This document shows, piece after piece, positions 6,856-31,572 of a stretch of 64,000 bases of DNA. The position numbers were made by a program, and so were the translations under genes. The number at the start of each line of letters is the position of its first letter. Position 1 is the stretch's first letter. The stretch is from Hydrogenophaga sp. (lineage in GTDB: Bacteria > Pseudomonadota > Gammaproteobacteria > Burkholderiales > Burkholderiaceae_C), in contig NZ_JAUSCF010000038.1 in NCBI RefSeq assembly GCF_030651625.1, positions 1 through 64,000 on the forward strand, given 5' to 3'. The notes under the pieces were generated by a model. The model was not told the DNA's origin. It ran no database searches and saw only the letters and a program-made list of their open reading frames with translations.

Positions 6856-7392
6856 CAGTCGTGTGCTGTAAGTGATTGATTTGCCTTGAGTTTAAGGCAG
6901 TCGTTGCAAACAGCCTCTCCCGCGCCGAGGCCCAGGGGACGGTCTGGTAAAAAGTTGCCACCCGCAGCACCCGGACCTTGTCCATTGCCTGACGCATTCG
7001 CAGACGAATCCAGGCGCGGAACCGGTCGGGTTGATGCTGTGGGCGAATCCGCTAAAGAAAACGCGAACCCGAATACGGAATACCAAAGTCATTCAGCCCC
7101 CAACGGGCTGGGTGAGGACGAAGTGAAGCCAGAGACCCATCGGCAAGAGCCATGTCATTGACAACCTCCTTGCCATCCCTGTTCACCCACCTCCACGCGC
7201 CTACGCCCTGACCTGGCGGTTCGACGCGGCACCCATGTGCCCGCCCGTGTCGAACACACCCCGAACCGCAGGTCATCGGCTCTCCGGCAATTCCCTCCCT
7301 CGTTCGCTTTTCCCGCTGATTCAAGGCAGGTTGGATGTGCACGGCCTCGAGGCCGGCATGTCCTTGTGTGTTTGAACGAAGGAAAACGCATC

Positions 7393-15210: not shown

Positions 15211-18200
15211 ATGAGCCGAGACCCTGCACGTGCCGCCGTATCCCCTGCAAGGTCGCCGGCCAGTGCCGCCACCGCAGCCCAAAAAACCCGGCCAGGGCCC
15301 GACAAAGACAAGCCACTGATCGAAGACATCCGCCTGCTGGGGCGCATTCTGGGTGATGTGATCCGCGAGCAGGAAGGCGAGGCGGCCTTCGAACTGATCG
15401 AGCAGATCCGGCAGCTCTCCGTCGCATTCCGCCGGCATGCGGACCAGTCGGCAGACAAGGCCCTCAAGAAGCTGCTGAAAGGGCTGAGCGGGAATCAGAC
15501 AGTGAGTGTCATTCGCGCCTTCACCTATTTCAGCCACCTGGCCAACCTGGCAGAAGACCGGCATCACATCCGCCGACGTGCCGTGCACGAGCGGGCTGGC
15601 GATTTGCAGGAAGGCAGTCTGGCGCTGACGCTGCAACGCCTGCGCAAGGCGGGCATCGCTCCTGCCGAGGTGCTGCGCACGCTGGCACAAAGCCACATTT
15701 CACCCGTGCTCACCGCCCACCCCACCGAAGTGCAGCGCAAGAGCATTCTGGATGCCGAACGCGCCATAGCCCGGCTGCTCAGCGAGCGCGAGGCGGGTGA
15801 AGCGCGCCTGCCCCGTGAGCTTGTCGACAACGAAGCCCAGATACGGGCGCGCGTCACACAACTCTGGCAGACGCGGCTTCTGCGATTCACCAAGCTGACT
15901 GTGGCCGATGAAATCGAGAACGCGCTGAGCTACTACGAAGCCACGTTTCTGACCCAGATACCCAAGCTCTATCAGGACCTCGAACAGGGTCTGAAAGACA
16001 AGGGCGCGGCAGGCCCGCCGTTGGCACCCTTTCTGCGGATGGGTCAATGGATCGGAGGCGACCGGGACGGCAACCCCAATGTGACCGCCGAAACCCTGGA
16101 ACTGGCCCTCAAGAGCCAGAGCGACATGGTGCTGCGACATCACCTCACACAGGTCCACCTGCTGGGCGCAGAGCTCTCTGTTTCAGCCATGCTGACCAGT
16201 GTCAGCCCGGCCATGCAAGAGCTGGCCGAGCGTTCACCCGACCGAAACGCCCACCGGCAGGACGAGCCCTACCGCCGGGCCCTCACAGGCATCTACGCCC
16301 GCCTGGCCGCCACGCTCACCCAGTTCACAGGTGGCGAAGCCGCTCGCCATGCGGTGGCGCCACAAGATCCCTACACCAGCTCTGATGAATTCCTGGCCGA
16401 CCTGCGCACGATCGAGGCGTCCCTGGTGGCAAACCATGGTGCAGCGCTGGCCAGTGCTCGCCTGCACCCGCTGATCCGTGCGGTGGAAGTGTTCGGCTTT
16501 CATCTGGCCACGGTGGATTTGCGCCAAAGCTCGGACAAGCACGAGGAAGTGATCAACGAATTGCTGGCGGTGGCGCGCATCGAGCCGGCCTACAGCCAGC
16601 TTGACGAAACCGGCAAACAGGCGGTGCTCTTGCGCCAGCTCAACGATGCCCGGCCTTTGCGCGTGCCCGGTGTCACCTATTCGGACCACAGCCGGAGCGA
16701 GCTGGCCATCTTCGAGACCGCCCGCCTCGGGCGCCAGCGCCTGGGTGCGCAGGCCATCCGGCACGCCATCATCAGCCACACCGAAACCGTGAGCGACCTG
16801 CTGGAAGTGCTGTTGCTGCAAAAGGAAACGGGTCTGCTGCATGGTTTGCTGGAGGAAAACGCGGTCTGTGATCTGATCGTGGTGCCCCTGTTCGAAACCA
16901 TTGAAGACCTGCGCAATGCCGCGCCCATCATGCGGGACTACTACGCACTGCCTGGCGTGAGCGCCATGGTGCAGCGCGGCCAGGCAGACGGCTACAGCGA
17001 ACAGGACATCATGCTGGGCTACTCCGACAGCAACAAGGACGGTGGCATCTTCACCAGCAACTGGGAGCTCTACCGCGCTGAAACCGCGCTGGTGAAGCTG
17101 TTCGATGAACTCAATGCCGACATCGCCGCCGGACCGCCCCAAGGCGACGCAGCCCCCTCCGGTGCAGCGACCCGCGCAAGCGGCGGAGCGTGGGGGCATA
17201 CCGAGCCGGCGCCGGGCAGCCCCAAGCCGGATCAGCCCCCTCGGGGGGCAGCGCCCCGCGCAAGCGGCGGAGCGTGGGGGCATACCGAGCCGGCGCCGGG
17301 CAGCCCCAAGCCGGATCAGCCCCCTCGGGGGGCAGCGACCCGCGCAGCGGTGGAGCGTGGGGGCCATATCCAGCTGCGCATGTTCCACGGGCGCGGCGGC
17401 ACGGTGGGGCGTGGCGGCGGCCCCAGCTACCAAGCCATCCTGGCACAGCCTCCCGGTACCGTGCGCGGCCAGATTCGCCTGACCGAGCAGGGGGAGGTGA
17501 TCGGGTCGAAGTACGCCAACCCCGAGATCGGCCGGCGCAACCTCGAAACATTGGTGGCCGCCACGCTGGAAGCCACCTTGCTGCAGACCACGCGCGATGC
17601 ACCCGCCGCCTTCATGGCAGCGGCCGACGCGCTTTCGCTGCACAGCATGGCGGCCTACCGCGCGCTGGTTTACGAGACACCGCGTTTCGCCGAGTTCTTT
17701 TTTGATGCGACGCCGATTCGCGAAATTGCCGAACTCAACATCGGCTCCCGACCCGCATCACGCAAGGCGTCTCAACGCATTGAAGATCTGCGGGCCATCC
17801 CATGGGGTTTCAGCTGGGGTCAATGTCGGCTCACACTGCCAGGCTGGTACGGCTTTGGCTCTGCGGTACAGGCATTCGTTCAACAGAACGGCCCAACAGG
17901 TGTTGCCAGGCAGAAGGCCCTGCTACAAAAGATGGCCATCCAATGGCCCTTTTTTCGCACCTTGTTGTCCAACATGGACATGGTGCTGGCCAAAAGCGAC
18001 CTCGCACTGGCTTCCCGGTATGCGGAACTGGTCAAAGACCGTCGGCTGCGCACCAAGGTGTTTGCCACCGTGCAAGCGGAGTGGCACCGCACGGTTGACG
18101 CGTTGAACATGATCACCGGTGCCAAACAGCGCCTGGTGAGCAATGCGGCCCTGCAACGCTCCATCCGGCACCGCTTTCCCTACATCGACCCGCTGCACCA

Positions 18201-25395: not shown

Positions 25396-25487
25396 GGAGA
25401 GATGGCAGAGTGGTCGAATGCACCGGATTCGAAATCCGGCGTACAGGTTCTCCTGTACCGAGGGTTCGAATCCCTCTCTCTCCGCCA
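25396..25487 (+). tRNA. tRNA-Ser (CGA anticodon)
   Basis: ggagaga...tctctccgcca acceptor, ccgga-ttcgaaa-tccgg anticodon arm, long variable arm tacaggttctcctgta, T-arm gagggttcgaatccctc, encoded CCA. Confidence 0.96.
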
Positions 25488-25527
25488 GAATCGTTCTGCT
25501 GATTGATGGAAGCAACAGAGCGCATCG

Positions 25528-25554
25528 CAAAAGCCCCTGCCGGGGCTTTTTGTA
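25528..25554 (+). terminator. Rho-independent terminator after tRNA-Ser
   Basis: aaaagcccctgccggggctttttgt. Confidence 0.85.
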
Positions 25555-25781
25555 TTTGCAGAGACCGGCGGATCGAACAGCACCTGCTGCTGCACCCGAG
25601 ATCCGTCAGACAGAATTGGCCGCAGCACTTGCAGCCTAGCCACCAGTTCCTCATTTTCCTCGCCATGATCCTCACAGTGGGGGTTGGAGTTGCGCATCGA
25701 CAGGCGTAAAACGGCTTCCGGAAAGGCATCCGGAAAGCTGCCGTCCGTCGTGGGCTGCAGCGATTCCCGAATGGGTGAACA

Positions 25782-28067
25782 ATGGCAACCCAACCCAATC
25801 CTTCGCTGGCGCCCGCAGCGGTCAAGACCGGTACCAATCGGGTCAAGCGCATCACCTCTGCGATGGGCGAGGAGGCAGCACCAGCGGCGGCCTCAGTTCC
25901 GAAAAAGGTGGCCCCGAAAAAAGCAAGATCCAGGACCAAACCCAGGTCCCATGCACCGATCGACTTGGCTTCGCGACTTTTCGACGCCCGGCCCGATCGG
26001 CTTGATTTCCGCGACCTGAACTACGTGCCTCCGCTGCGCTCGCTGGACACCCACTTCCCAGCCCAGGACTTTCTTGCCGAGGCGGTCCCCGCCTACGTGC
26101 AATCGGGCCTGGTGCTGGACCAGGGAGAGGAAGGCGCCTGCACCGGTTTTGGGCTCGCGACGGTGGTCAACTACCTGCTCTGGATCCGTCGCTTCGACCA
26201 GCGTGGCGGGGCCGCCGTGATCAAGGTCAGCCCGCACATGCTGTACGAACTGGCGAGACGCTATGACGAATGGGAAGGTGAGGATTACGAAGGATCTTCG
26301 TGTCGCGGGGCCCTCAAAGGTTTTCACAAGCACGGTGTCTGCCAGATGCGCTACTGGCGCACGGACCACCACGGTGCGCGGGCCCACCTTGAATGGGAGC
26401 TCGACGCACTGAAGCACCCGCTGGGGGTTTACTACCGGGTGAACAAGAGGTCGGTGGTGGAATTGCAGGCTGCGATCAATGAAATCGGCGCCATCTACGT
26501 GTCGGCCAGGGTCCACGACGGCTGGGACAGGGTGGCCCGACTGGCCCGCCCGCCTGAATCACACGATGAAGCAGCGTTGCCGACCATTCCGGCCGCCAGT
26601 CGAAACTCGCCTTGGGGCGGGCACGCTTTTGCGCTGGTGGGGTACAACGACCGCGGCTTTGTGGTGCAGAACTCCTGGGGCACGGGCTGGGGTGCGGGGG
26701 GTTTTGCAGTGCTGCCGTACGCAGACTGGGTGGTTCATGGCACGGACGCCTGGGCCGTGGCACTGGGTGTGCCCCAAAGCCAGGCCATGTCGCCCGAACG
26801 GATTGCGGCGTTGCGATGGCCCACGCGCAGCGGGCGTTCGATCGGCTTTGCCGTGCGCAGCACCGTGAACGAAGACAACCCGGTTGACGATCCCTGGCCC
26901 ATCGACAAGCCGTTTCTGCACAGGGCGTATCAGCCGTGGCCCACGGCCAAAGCCTATGAACACACGCTCGTGACCGGGAACAACGGGCACATCATCGTCA
27001 CCGATCTGGCCGCGGGCATCGACGGAAGCGAAGCGGCGTTCGTTCAGGCGCAGGTGAACCGGGCACTGAATTTCTTTCAATCGCAAGGAAATGCACGCAT
27101 CATGATCTATGCACACGGCGGGCTGAACAGCCAGGGTGAATCGATCGAGCGCATTCGCCTGCTGGCCCCCTATTTCGAAGCAAATGGCATCTACCCCTTC
27201 TTCCTGACCTGGCGCACCGGTCCAATGGAGACGCTGGGGCACATGCTGGAAGACAAGGTACGCAAGCTGTTCGGACTGGACGACGATGCGCGCGCCCGGG
27301 GATTGTTCAATCTGCTGGCTGAAGCACGCGACCGCTCTGTGGAAGTGGTGGCCAGCAAGGCGGTCAAAGGGCTGTGGTCAGAAATGCGCGAAAACGCCCG
27401 ACTGGCGGCCCGGCGCGGCCGCGGCAGCGCCCTGCTGGCCGACGCGCTCTCGCAGCTTCAGGTGCATTTGGGCAACCGTCCGCTCCAGTTGCACCTGGTT
27501 GGGCACTCTGCTGGCTCCATCGTGCTCGGTCACCTGCTGGACCGTCTCGCAGTCAGCCAGGTGAAGGTGGCGGGTTGCACGTTGTTCGCGCCCGCCTGCA
27601 CGGTGGCATTCGCCACCGAAAAATACCTGGACAAGAACACCAGCATCTTTGATTCCAGGCAACTCCACCTCCACTACCTGACCGACAAGCAGGAAAAGGA
27701 TGACGATCTGCTGAAGCTGGGAGCCGTCACGCTGTACGGCAAGTCGCTGCTGTACCTCGTCAGCCGTGCCCTGGACGACGTGCGCAAAGTGCCTCTGCTG
27801 GGCATGGAGCGGGCACATGATCCGCAGCACTTCACAGAAGACCAGTGGGACAGGAGCCACCTGCGTCACCTGCAGGACTGGCACGGTCGCTTTCCTCGAT
27901 CCAACCTGCACCCTGTACCAATGCCCCACGTCCCGGTCAATCGCGAAGGCAAGACCTCTCAGGCGACCCACGGTTCGTTCGACAACAACATCGAAGTGAT
28001 GACCCAGACCATCGAACGCGTCAAAGGCAGCCCGCTGGTGAGCCCGATCGAGTGGCTGGACTACTGA
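25782..28067 (+). CDS. Fusion protein: papain-like (C1) cysteine protease domain + alpha/beta hydrolase domain
   Basis: LDQGEEGACTGFGLATVVNYLL (Cys), GGHAFALVGYNDRGFVVQNSWGTGWGAGGFAVLPY (His, Asn); C-terminal IMIYAHGGLNSQGESIERI and LHLVGHSAGSIVLGHLLDRL. Confidence 0.88.
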   Translation: MATQPNPSLAPAAVKTGTNRVKRITSAMGEEAAPAAASVPKKVAPKKARSRTKPRSHAPIDLASRLFDARPDRLDFRDLNYVPPLRSLDTHFPAQDFLAEAVPAYVQSGLVLDQGEEGACTGFGLATVVNYLLWIRRFDQRGGAAVIKVSPHMLYELARRYDEWEGEDYEGSSCRGALKGFHKHGVCQMRYWRTDHHGARAHLEWELDALKHPLGVYYRVNKRSVVELQAAINEIGAIYVSARVHDGWDRVARLARPPESHDEAALPTIPAASRNSPWGGHAFALVGYNDRGFVVQNSWGTGWGAGGFAVLPYADWVVHGTDAWAVALGVPQSQAMSPERIAALRWPTRSGRSIGFAVRSTVNEDNPVDDPWPIDKPFLHRAYQPWPTAKAYEHTLVTGNNGHIIVTDLAAGIDGSEAAFVQAQVNRALNFFQSQGNARIMIYAHGGLNSQGESIERIRLLAPYFEANGIYPFFLTWRTGPMETLGHMLEDKVRKLFGLDDDARARGLFNLLAEARDRSVEVVASKAVKGLWSEMRENARLAARRGRGSALLADALSQLQVHLGNRPLQLHLVGHSAGSIVLGHLLDRLAVSQVKVAGCTLFAPACTVAFATEKYLDKNTSIFDSRQLHLHYLTDKQEKDDDLLKLGAVTLYGKSLLYLVSRALDDVRKVPLLGMERAHDPQHFTEDQWDRSHLRHLQDWHGRFPRSNLHPVPMPHVPVNREGKTSQATHGSFDNNIEVMTQTIERVKGSPLVSPIEWLDY

Positions 28068-28114: not shown

Positions 28115-31100
28115 TCAAGGATGCGGCAACCGGAACCAGAAAGTCGTACCCTGACCAGGCGCGGAATCGGCCCAGATGCGCCCTCCATGCCGCTCCAGGA
28201 TGCGTGCCACGATCGCCAGCCCTACGCCGGTACCCGGCACATCACTGCCTGCATGCAGGCGCTGGAACAAACCGAACAGCTTGTCGGCATGCGCCATGTC
28301 GAATCCCATGCCGTTGTCGCGCACATAGTAAGCGCGCTGTGCGGCGCTGTACCCCAGCTTCAGCTCCGGTGTTGCCTGATGCCGTGAGTACTTCAGTCCG
28401 TTGTCCATCAGGTTGAACAGCACCTGACGAAGCAGCGTGGCATCACCCATGGCCTCGGGAACCGTGTCGAGTTCGATGCGAGCGTGTTCGTATTGGGGTG
28501 CGAGCACCTCTGCCACCGACTGGGCCAGCACGTGCAGATTGACCGGCACGGCCGCCAGGTCCACGCGTACCACGCGCAGCAGTTCGAGCATGTCGGTGAT
28601 CATCTGCCCCATGTTGCGGGACGATCGCGTGATACGACCGAACATGTCGCGTGCCAGCGGGCTCAACCGGTCACCCTCCTCCTCGGCAATCAGTGAGGCA
28701 AAACCATTGACCGAGCGCAACGGCGCGCGCAAGTCGTGCGCAATGGAGTAGGAGATGGCCTCCATGTCGCGCATGGAACGCTCAAGTTCCGCGGTCCGTT
28801 CGGACACCCGCAGTTCAAGGCTGGCATTGAGTGCCCGCACCTGTTCCTGCGCAGCCACCCGCGCGCTGATGTCCACATGGGTGCCCGACATGAACAACGG
28901 GCGTCCATCGGCATCACGCTGGTGCACCCGCCCCCGATCGTTGATCCAGATCCAGTGCCCTGCCTTGTGGCGCATGCGCAAATCACATTCGTAGAACTCC
29001 GCCTCGCCCGACAGGTGCCGCTCCAGCACATGCTCGGCAAACGGTAGGTCCAGCGGATGCACGAGCCGCCGCCAGGTCTCAAAGGTGGTGGGCAGGAGTT
29101 CTTCCACCGAGTACCCCAGCATGGTGGCCCAGTGTTCATTGATGGTGGTCTCCCACGTCACCAGGTTGGTTTCCCAGACCCCAGGCCGGGTCGCATCCAG
29201 CACCCAGGCAAGCCGCTGCCGCTCGTGGGCCAGCGCCTCCTGAGCCTGCACATACGACGTGACATCGGTGTAAGTTCGCACCATGCCGCCGTCGGGAAGC
29301 TTGCGGGTTCGGATCTCAAGCGTCTTGCCATCGCGGGTACGGCGCAGGTAGGTCTCTGGCGCACTAAAAATGTGCTCCTTGACCAAGAAGGGCCGCATGG
29401 CCGGGTCCACCTGCAACATGTCTTCACCAAAGTCGCCACGATCGACTTGGAACTGGCCGACGCGCTCGAACGAAGGGTTGTCTGCGAACAACCATTCAGG
29501 CAGATCCAGCAATTCCAGCATGCGCCGGTTGTAGAAGCGAAAATCCCCCTGCCCATCGACCATTGCAAAGCCCTGGCTCACGCTGTCCAGTGTGACCTGA
29601 AGGGCGCTGCTTTTTTCTGCCAGCAAGCAGGTGGTGTCTTCCAGTTGCTTGAGCGTCTGCAACCGCTCCTCGTGGTCGCGTTGGGCCAGAACCAGTTGCT
29701 GCACAGCGCCCAGCAAGGGCTGCAGGAACTCGATATCGGCTTCGCTGTAGCCGCCGGGCTGGTTGGCAAGACCCACCATGGCCACCAGACGGTCGCCCAC
29801 CATGAGCGGAATACCCAGGAACGCATACATGCTCGGGTGACCCTTGGGCAGGCCACCGGCACGGGCGTCAGATGCGGGATGATTTGCGATCACGGGCGCG
29901 CGGGTGACCATGCCGTGACCGAACAATGTCTTGAGGTTGTGGAACTCCATGCCGCCCTGGGCCTGCTGGACAAACAGGCGATGCGACATGTCGTCCCAGG
30001 CAATGTTGGTGACCGCATGGGTCTTGAGATACGGGGCGCCTTGCTCATCGTAGAGCACCTCGCCCACGAAGCCGTATTCGCTGCCTGTGACGGAAAGGAA
30101 CGCGTCGAGCAAACCCTCGAAGGCTTTTCGCTTGTCGTCGGCTTCGATGAAACGGGACTGCGCCATGCGCACGGTCTCCAGCATCCTGTTCTGCCGATCC
30201 ACTTTTTGCGCCGCCAGCCTCGCCTCGGTGACGTCGGTGGTGAAGCCGTGCCACACGATGGTCCCGTCTTCCTCGCGCTGTGGCGCCGCCTCCACCTGGT
30301 TCCAGCGCACACCGCGCTGGGGCAGAACCACACGGTAGGTTTGCCGCCAGATCGTCAGGTCGCGGGCCGACTTGCCCAGTGCAGCAACGAGTTCGTCGCG
30401 ATCGTCGGCATGCACCCTCCCGAACAGCAGGCGCACGTCCTTCTGCAAGTCTGCCGGGTCCAGCTCCAGCAACTCCCTCGCCGCCTCATTCACGTAGGTG
30501 ATGGCACTGGTGCCGTCCGGGCGCAGGCGTGCCTGGTACACGATGCCGGGCACCCGGGCCGCGATGTTCTGCAGCAACTGAAGCTGCTGGGCCAACTGAA
30601 GCGTAGCCTCGCGCTCGGTCGTGACATCCTGTATCACCCCGAAGTCGGTTCGTGGATTGCCCGCCACAGTCGTCTGGCCAATGCGGGTGCGAAACCAGCG
30701 TTGTTGCCCGTCCGGCCGGGTCCAGCGGAAATCCACCACGCGGCCATCAAGTGCCTCACGCGCCTCAAGCCAGGCGGGCATGTCGTCCGGATGAATGCCG
30801 CTGCGGCCAACGATTCGCGAGAGCACCTCTTGGGGTTCAATGCCTGTGATGTCAAACAGCCCCTGCGACCAGACAACATCCCGCTCGTTGTCGGAGTTGG
30901 TCCAATGCCCCACGAGCGCCAGCTTCTCGATGGCGTCGTGCAGTTCCACCCGTTGCTGCAGAGCCACGTTGGCGGCGCTGAGCGCCTGGTCAGCCTGAGA
31001 CCTTGCCGCTTCCGCTTTGAGCTCAAGGGTGGCCTCAATGAAATACACAAGCATCAGCGGCTCTGGCTGCACGTCCAGCAAGGTGGTGTGCAGCCGAACG

Positions 31101-31489
31101 TGGTGCCGCTCGCCATCACACAGTGTGAGCGTCTGCACCCCGTGGCTGAAACGCCCCTCTTCCAGGTACCGGTGCCGCTCCGCAGCGTCGGCCCAGTGCC
31201 CCAGCTCAATGGTGGTGCGCCCGATGGCAGTCTCCCGGGTCAGGCCGGTGAATGCCAGCCAGGCATCGTTCACCGCCAGCAGACAGCCATCGCGCTGGCG
31301 CGAAACCGACGCCGCCAGCGGCGACGCCTGGAAAAAAGCCTCGAAGGGCAGGTTCTGTTCGAAGTGGTGACCCAGGGACACGCTACCGTTTCCTTCGGCG
31401 GGGTTCGCGGGCAGGGGCTTCTCGTGTTCCGCATTGGCCATGCTGGCTGGGTCCGCAGTATGAGGTTGACGGTATCGGCTGGGAGACAT
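28115..31489 (-). CDS. Multi-PAS/GAF sensor histidine kinase (start uncertain)
   Basis: Several PAS/PAC modules (GVIQDVTTERE, GFTTDVTEARL), GAF-like mid-region, SIAHDLRAPLRSVNGFASLI H-box, LFNLMDNGLKYS, DNGMGFD, GTGVGLAI. Confidence 0.92.
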   Translation of the reverse strand: MSPSRYRQPHTADPASMANAEHEKPLPANPAEGNGSVSLGHHFEQNLPFEAFFQASPLAASVSRQRDGCLLAVNDAWLAFTGLTRETAIGRTTIELGHWADAAERHRYLEEGRFSHGVQTLTLCDGERHHVRLHTTLLDVQPEPLMLVYFIEATLELKAEAARSQADQALSAANVALQQRVELHDAIEKLALVGHWTNSDNERDVVWSQGLFDITGIEPQEVLSRIVGRSGIHPDDMPAWLEAREALDGRVVDFRWTRPDGQQRWFRTRIGQTTVAGNPRTDFGVIQDVTTEREATLQLAQQLQLLQNIAARVPGIVYQARLRPDGTSAITYVNEAARELLELDPADLQKDVRLLFGRVHADDRDELVAALGKSARDLTIWRQTYRVVLPQRGVRWNQVEAAPQREEDGTIVWHGFTTDVTEARLAAQKVDRQNRMLETVRMAQSRFIEADDKRKAFEGLLDAFLSVTGSEYGFVGEVLYDEQGAPYLKTHAVTNIAWDDMSHRLFVQQAQGGMEFHNLKTLFGHGMVTRAPVIANHPASDARAGGLPKGHPSMYAFLGIPLMVGDRLVAMVGLANQPGGYSEADIEFLQPLLGAVQQLVLAQRDHEERLQTLKQLEDTTCLLAEKSSALQVTLDSVSQGFAMVDGQGDFRFYNRRMLELLDLPEWLFADNPSFERVGQFQVDRGDFGEDMLQVDPAMRPFLVKEHIFSAPETYLRRTRDGKTLEIRTRKLPDGGMVRTYTDVTSYVQAQEALAHERQRLAWVLDATRPGVWETNLVTWETTINEHWATMLGYSVEELLPTTFETWRRLVHPLDLPFAEHVLERHLSGEAEFYECDLRMRHKAGHWIWINDRGRVHQRDADGRPLFMSGTHVDISARVAAQEQVRALNASLELRVSERTAELERSMRDMEAISYSIAHDLRAPLRSVNGFASLIAEEEGDRLSPLARDMFGRITRSSRNMGQMITDMLELLRVVRVDLAAVPVNLHVLAQSVAEVLAPQYEHARIELDTVPEAMGDATLLRQVLFNLMDNGLKYSRHQATPELKLGYSAAQRAYYVRDNGMGFDMAHADKLFGLFQRLHAGSDVPGTGVGLAIVARILERHGGRIWADSAPGQGTTFWFRLPHP

Positions 31490-31572
31490 TCTGACCAAAT
31501 TCTGCCGGGCCGGGAGGGAAACGTTGCGAAGGCCCAAACTGCTACAGTCGCTGGCTGACCTGCCACCGCCCG

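Follow-up and report, generated by a model that had tools for sequence, protein, structure and literature searches.

A conserved fusion of a papain-like protease and an alpha/beta hydrolase in Hydrogenophaga, a possible cytosolic effector of cell death or defence

The window, by which we mean the whole 64,000-nucleotide stretch of Hydrogenophaga sp. DNA that was analysed, contains a gene in which a papain-like cysteine protease and an alpha/beta hydrolase are joined in a single polypeptide. The catalytic positions of both halves are invariant across 68 aligned members, which argues for an old two-enzyme family and not a chance fusion. We are confident that the fusion represents a genuine dual-enzyme family. 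Judged from its sequence and its relatives, the protein may be a cytosolic protease-lipase effector of death or defence, a proposal whose chances we regard as about even. The preliminary description of this DNA had suggested a toxin, an effector or a regulated stress enzyme. This range is plausible and the relatives favour a cell-death or defence effector; a T6SS-delivered toxin is disfavoured by the lack of a sheath gene.

The open reading frame begins with ATG and ends with TGA. Its product contains the motifs QGEEGACTGF, GGHAFALVGY, QNSWGTGWG and LHLVGHSAGSIVLG; these motifs and the 761-aa frame agree with the preliminary description. The motifs are well outside what chance would produce, given that all 68 aligned family members keep the catalytic residues. 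The features of the gene and its product are as follows.

25782..28067, + strand: papain-like protease/alpha-beta hydrolase fusion gene, 761 aa (ORF, homologues and AlphaFold2 models)
25782..25970, + strand: residues 1-63, Lys/Arg/Ala-rich N-terminal region, predicted disordered (pLDDT, sequence)
25971..26039, + strand: residues 64-86, conserved strap DARPDRLDFRDLNYVPPL (family alignment, similarity to xylellain)
26040..26786, + strand: papain-fold cysteine protease domain, about residues 87-335 (profile, PDB, AlphaFold2, Foldseek)
26121..26123, + strand: Gln114, oxyanion-hole Gln, invariant (alignment)
26139..26141, + strand: Cys120, predicted nucleophile at the head of helix 120-139, invariant (alignment, model)
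26622..26624, + strand: His281, predicted general base, invariant (alignment)
26670..26672, + strand: Asn297, third catalytic residue, invariant (alignment)
26949..28028, + strand: alpha/beta-hydrolase domain, about residues 390-749 (Pfam, AlphaFold2, Foldseek)
27507..27509, + strand: Ser576 of GHSAG, predicted nucleophile in a strand-turn-helix elbow, invariant in the full-triad family (alignment, model)
27693..27704, + strand: Glu638-Asp641, invariant acids past a late strand, candidates for the third catalytic residue (alignment, model)
27969..27971, + strand: His730 of HGxFDN, predicted catalytic His, invariant (alignment, model)

The papain half scored 19.0 bits against Pfam Peptidase_C1 (PF00112), below the gathering score of 20.7; we call this shortfall a matter of detection threshold, not a biological feature, and the half a divergent C1A relative. 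A PHROGs peptidase family matches residues 107-328 (E=6.5e-10), and the nearest solved sequence is xylellain of Xylella (PDB 3ois, E=2e-9, residues 70-314). Foldseek aligned the model with papain 2cio (E=6e-7, TM(target) 0.70), as expected for the papain fold. The oxyanion Gln and Cys-His-Asn set of peptidase family C1A is complete, with Q114, C120, H281 and N297 invariant (n=68). Xylellain and the short bacterial C1A peptidases have this fold and catalytic set in common with the fusion protein, and xylellain carries a similar N-terminal strap, PDxxDxRDxxY. However, the 3ois chain is 291 aa without a hydrolase, whereas the fusion protein adds an alpha/beta hydrolase of about 360 residues. Strap residues D72, D75, R77 and D78 are invariant in the family alignment, and the strap is a possible propeptide-like segment.

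The hydrolase half has the GxSxG nucleophile elbow (S576), late acid (E638/D641) and late His (H730) of an alpha/beta hydrolase. In the AlphaFold2 model Ser576 sits between strand 568-575 and helix 578-591. Pfam Ser_hydrolase (PF06821) matched at E=4e-4 with 20.6 bits, under its cut-off of 22. The Foldseek neighbours are weak (A. fulgidus lipase as the best with E=2e-3, cutinase, the DDHD domain of Nir2) and profile search found no PDB chain, so we regard this half as an alpha/beta hydrolase to which no solved structure is close. By Pfam, PDB profile and Foldseek it could not be assigned to a named subfamily.

The full-length AlphaFold2 model, built from 46 aligned family members, has a mean pLDDT of 82 and a pTM of 0.79; the hydrolase domain modelled alone reached 90 and 0.90, respectively. 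Domain search and structure prediction, the checks proposed with the preliminary description, showed both domains well folded, with the catalytic residues in the expected secondary-structure positions. The protease-hydrolase fusion with intact catalytic sets is borne out by the 68-member alignment. The basic, disordered N-terminus was recovered too: pLDDT is below 50 for residues 1-44 and 46-76, and residues 1-76 are predicted disordered. As had also been noted, no hydrophobic stretch of the signal-peptide type is visible in the sequence. No match to the fusion protein was found in PADLOC 2.0 up to E=1, NCBIfam gave no useful match, and the fusion as such was named by no library searched.

Searching the GTDB representative genomes for homologues yielded 70 related loci; in nearly all of them one frame encodes both domains. 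In the alignment of 68 full-length homologues, Q114, C120, H281, N297, H445, S576, E638, D641 and H730 are invariant. These homologues come from Pseudomonadota, Bacteroidota, Verrucomicrobiota and Campylobacterota, with Burkholderiales, Alphaproteobacteria and Luteimonas among the sources; many members are from bins, so single taxonomic placements are unsure. The lone, unusual fusion first described is thus solitary in the window but is not a one-off. Two split cases (L051, L065) resemble a frameshift and a premature stop, one each, and not separate genes, and gene fission was rejected. Further apparent members among neighbouring ORFs proved to be either duplicates or shadow ORFs arising in GC-rich sequence. 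The distribution is patchy: within the genus the gene occurs in its own genome and in 7 of 66 others, and both halves were found in 10 of 398 other Pseudomonadota genomes. Plasmid records also hold relatives, labelled "C1 family peptidase" where annotated, with the hydrolase half unnamed. Four phage records matched, limited to the papain half.

The surroundings of the gene contain the following features.

25396..25487, + strand: complete tRNA-Ser(cga); the left-hand genus synteny stops at its 3' end
25529..25550, + strand: terminator-like hairpin past the tRNA, separating it from the gene
25684..25712, + strand: weak promoter-like TTGGAG-N17-TAAAAC, retained at equal spacing in the nearest relative (L102)
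28115..31537, - strand: sensor histidine kinase (PAS/GAF), context only; the right-hand genus synteny (kinase-mutS) starts here

The promoter-like site was not called in a stricter consensus scan. To the left of the fusion gene the genus synteny runs to 25487-25490, and to the right it resumes at about 28115; the compared genomes showed the intervening stretch at neither place. Apart from the nearest relative, same-genus carriers have the gene but not the flanks in common with the window. In L102, the nearest relative, a 60-bp tRNA-Ser 3' fragment (6889-6948), identical to window 25428-25487, lies upstream of the gene copy at a distance of about 1.1 kb and looks like an attachment-site duplicate. 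No tRNA-Ser was found at the other same-genus carrier loci checked. The position next to a tRNA, noted in the preliminary description, is therefore true of the window but is not a family property, and a tRNA-linked island was rejected as a general explanation. In G035 the tRNA-Ser and mutS lie on one contig about 200 kb apart, so the window junction also reflects a rearrangement. We do not claim an integrated element at the tRNA-Ser; the synteny breaks, together with the same-genus copies sited elsewhere, make the tRNA context and not a partner.

The immediate neighbours of the fusion gene are kinases, a response regulator and MutS; neither a defence gene next to it nor an immunity-like neighbour was found in the window. 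Among 123 neighbouring proteins, most of them from the Burkholderiales set, metabolic families prevail, and no conserved operon partner was found in Burkholderiales, the window's own branch. The gene's own genome has five trypsin_2 proteins, but a caspase (PF00656), a NucA (PF01223) and the T6SS sheath VipB/TssC (PF05943) gave no match in it.

More suggestive neighbours occur in relatives. Their linkage is descriptive, with no random-gene baseline, and related plasmids do not count as independent cases; a simple home-made caller was used for the neighbour genes of GC-rich loci. In a full-triad member from a Campylobacteraceae bin (L036), a caspase lies directly upstream. In three full-triad members from Roseobacteraceae (L040, L042, L070), a trypsin-NucA (Endonuclease_NS) protein of about 1,090 aa is encoded directly downstream, starting within tens of bases of the fusion gene; its domains were shown for L040 and follow by homology for L042 and L070. 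The full-triad locus of R. leguminosarum (L087) has trypsin, hypothetical, YLATT membrane protein and caspase genes within 6 kb, and that of R. gallicum (L089) has a trypsin-NucA gene near two fusion copies. In L154, another full-triad member, the gene overlaps one for a haem peroxidase. Over its last third, the L040 neighbour shows homology to the rhizobial caspases, in their N-terminal half; this common region is GDSL-like below the Pfam cut-off, with no obvious GDSL motif.

Some rows of genes were observed beside these. A giant hypothetical protein (>2,200 aa) is encoded divergently beside a papain-containing gene on Roseivivax and Paracoccus plasmids (L086 1-6722, L094 1-5891, L095 1-5840), and its L086 copy has no Pfam match. 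On the Palleronia plasmid pTHAF1_a (L093 and L169), a same-strand row encodes a subtilisin, a haem peroxidase, the papain protein, a caspase-like protein whose gene spans the record start, and a peptidoglycan-binding protein. At L160 and L161, where the papain gene does not adjoin the caspase, the rhizobial caspase gene is followed by chitosanase and L,D-transpeptidase-like genes and, further on, C25 peptidase genes.

The protease partner is exchangeable. In two further genomes a triple fusion joins Amidase_2, the alpha/beta hydrolase and a caspase in one protein (L156 577-3333, L157 538-3408); its hydrolase is that of the papain fusion (28% identity, E=3e-29) with the landmark residues retained, and Amidase_2 and caspase stand in place of papain. 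L150 has weak PG_binding and GH19-like matches ahead of papain-hydrolase. Decay was seen as well. At five rhizobial loci (L096, L158, L159, L162, L163) a caspase gene lies next to that of the papain protein or overlaps it, and the second domain of the papain protein is homologous to the hydrolase (hhalign 98.4%, E=8.5e-15). Here the elbow GHSAG has become CDGAG and the His is lost, while the papain triad is kept; the adjoining caspases keep SGHG and DSCHSG in the copies where both were found. Because of the altered elbow and lost His these are not strict papain-lipases, and we list them apart from the full-triad members. Rhodobacterales also have trypsin-papain fusions (L086 and, by homology, L094) without a hydrolase triad.

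The evidence for a cytosolic death or defence effector is of several kinds: the two invariant active sites, the patchy spread and shifting genomic position, the full-triad relatives beside conflict-type genes (caspase, trypsin-NucA), the hydrolase fused to caspase and Amidase_2, and the dead-hydrolase rhizobial branch coupled to a caspase gene. A cytosolic site of action is suggested by the missing signal-peptide-like stretch and T6SS sheath gene. Systems combining caspase, trypsin, NucA, papain-like and alpha/beta-hydrolase components have been published (PMC7159879), which points the same way. Against the effector are the absence of a conserved partner in the window's own branch, the absence of caspase and NucA from its own genome, the lack of a PADLOC match, and the lack of a close solved hydrolase. 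Moreover, the linkage is clearest in Alphaproteobacteria and in the subgroup with the dead hydrolase.

Such an effector would supply two enzymes from a single gene, probably in the cytosol. Its default state would be inactive, with the conserved N-terminal strap or a linker perhaps acting as the restraint, and stress or invasion might switch it on, possibly through proteolysis; the likely trigger, or else a parallel arm, would in relatives be the neighbouring caspase or trypsin-nuclease protein. The hydrolase could then attack the membrane or other esters, these substrates being a guess, and the protease could cleave itself, a partner or cell proteins. The carrier cell would stop growing or die as a result, a form of abortive defence.

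We consider it rather unlikely that the protein is instead a solitary intracellular housekeeping or stress hydrolase, in which protease and esterase are fused for the turnover of damaged proteins, lipids or a storage polymer without a role in conflict. The gene does stand alone among metabolic genes in Burkholderiales and Luteimonas, it clusters by lineage in the tree, and the window offers no adjacent defence genes. However, it is absent from most same-genus genomes, its position shifts even between close relatives, and caspase, trypsin and nuclease genes are found linked or fused to its relatives. The family has no known housekeeping function; neither of the outcomes that the preliminary description had named as refuting it, misaligned catalytic residues or a widespread housekeeping family, came about.

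Improbable, in our judgement, is an antibacterial toxin secreted or injected (by T6SS or similar) into neighbours with protease and lipase as two warheads. Lipase, protease, amidase and nuclease are the usual antibacterial warheads, and amidase, GH19, CHAP and peptidoglycan-binding domains occur in or beside relatives. Yet neither a signal-peptide-like stretch nor an immunity-like neighbour was seen in the window, no VgrG or PAAR family recurs among the matches listed for the 123 neighbours, and the own genome, in which VipB/TssC is missing, is 99.98% complete; a T6SS effector was rejected on this ground. That the papain domain activates another protein, with the hydrolase mainly a binding scaffold, would fit the rhizobial branch, which lost the hydrolase Ser and His and kept the papain triad, but is very improbable for the window's own family, in which the hydrolase triad is invariant and selection would not keep it for a scaffold.

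The published work that comes nearest to the cytosolic effector is an eLife paper of 2020 on NucA-trypsin systems and caspase-hydrolase pairs (PMC7159879). In "System 3" (Kaur et al. 2020), trypsin and NucA belong to the same operon; trypsin-NucA lies directly beside L040, L042 and L070 and near L089, but not in the window, whose genome lacks PF01223. By their description, the MoxR-vWA ternary systems have caspase and alpha/beta-hydrolase pairs, a protease-hydrolase pairing as in the fusion, whose hydrolase family also occurs fused to caspases (L156, L157). In contrast, the window protease is papain-type, a single chain carries both enzymes, and neither an NTPase nor a vWA partner lies alongside. 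A caspase-fold partner is lacking in the own genome and present in L036, L087, L156 and L157. Kaur et al. also mention papain-like peptidoglycan peptidases joined to EAD1, and a papain-hydrolase fusion was not seen in the parts of their paper covered.

In the CARD-NLR/LypABC lysis system, LypC is described as trypsin plus endonuclease (PMC13236601), resembling the L040 neighbour; however, no CARD, NLR or endonuclease partner was seen in the window, and the words "papain" and "hydrolase" are absent from that paper. The caspase-nuclease (canu) and protease-activated nuclease loci (PMC12799240) have in common the idea that a protease gates a second lytic enzyme. They differ in that the nuclease is of MBL type, and "papain" is absent from that paper. 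A 2023 survey of papain evolution did not analyse multidomain prokaryotic C1A proteins in detail (PMC10380794). We found no description of the papain-hydrolase fusion in the portions of the bacterial conflict, cell-death and papain literature searched.

With the balance somewhat against it, we tentatively suggest that the fusion represents an undescribed class of death effector. In this class a papain-type protease and a lipase would share one polypeptide, the hydrolase could take either papain or caspase as its protease module, and in a derived branch the hydrolase would have become a dead pseudoenzyme as a neighbouring-gene caspase took over. If this is true, bacteria have, next to caspases and trypsin-nuclease proteins, a single switchable protein that pairs a cathepsin-like protease with a lipase, in effect a small-scale equivalent of lytic cell death in eukaryotes. 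The class would also give a named, testable family where annotation reads just "C1 family peptidase", and would tie papain-type peptidases to cell death in bacteria, a context in which the papers covered name them just in passing.

Elsewhere in the window, positions 17127-17364 hold a GC-rich tandem array of an 84-bp unit (2.9 copies, 91% match). Parts of the unit recur in several genomes of the genus (L108, L110, L115, L116, L118), and it looks like a dispersed repeat.
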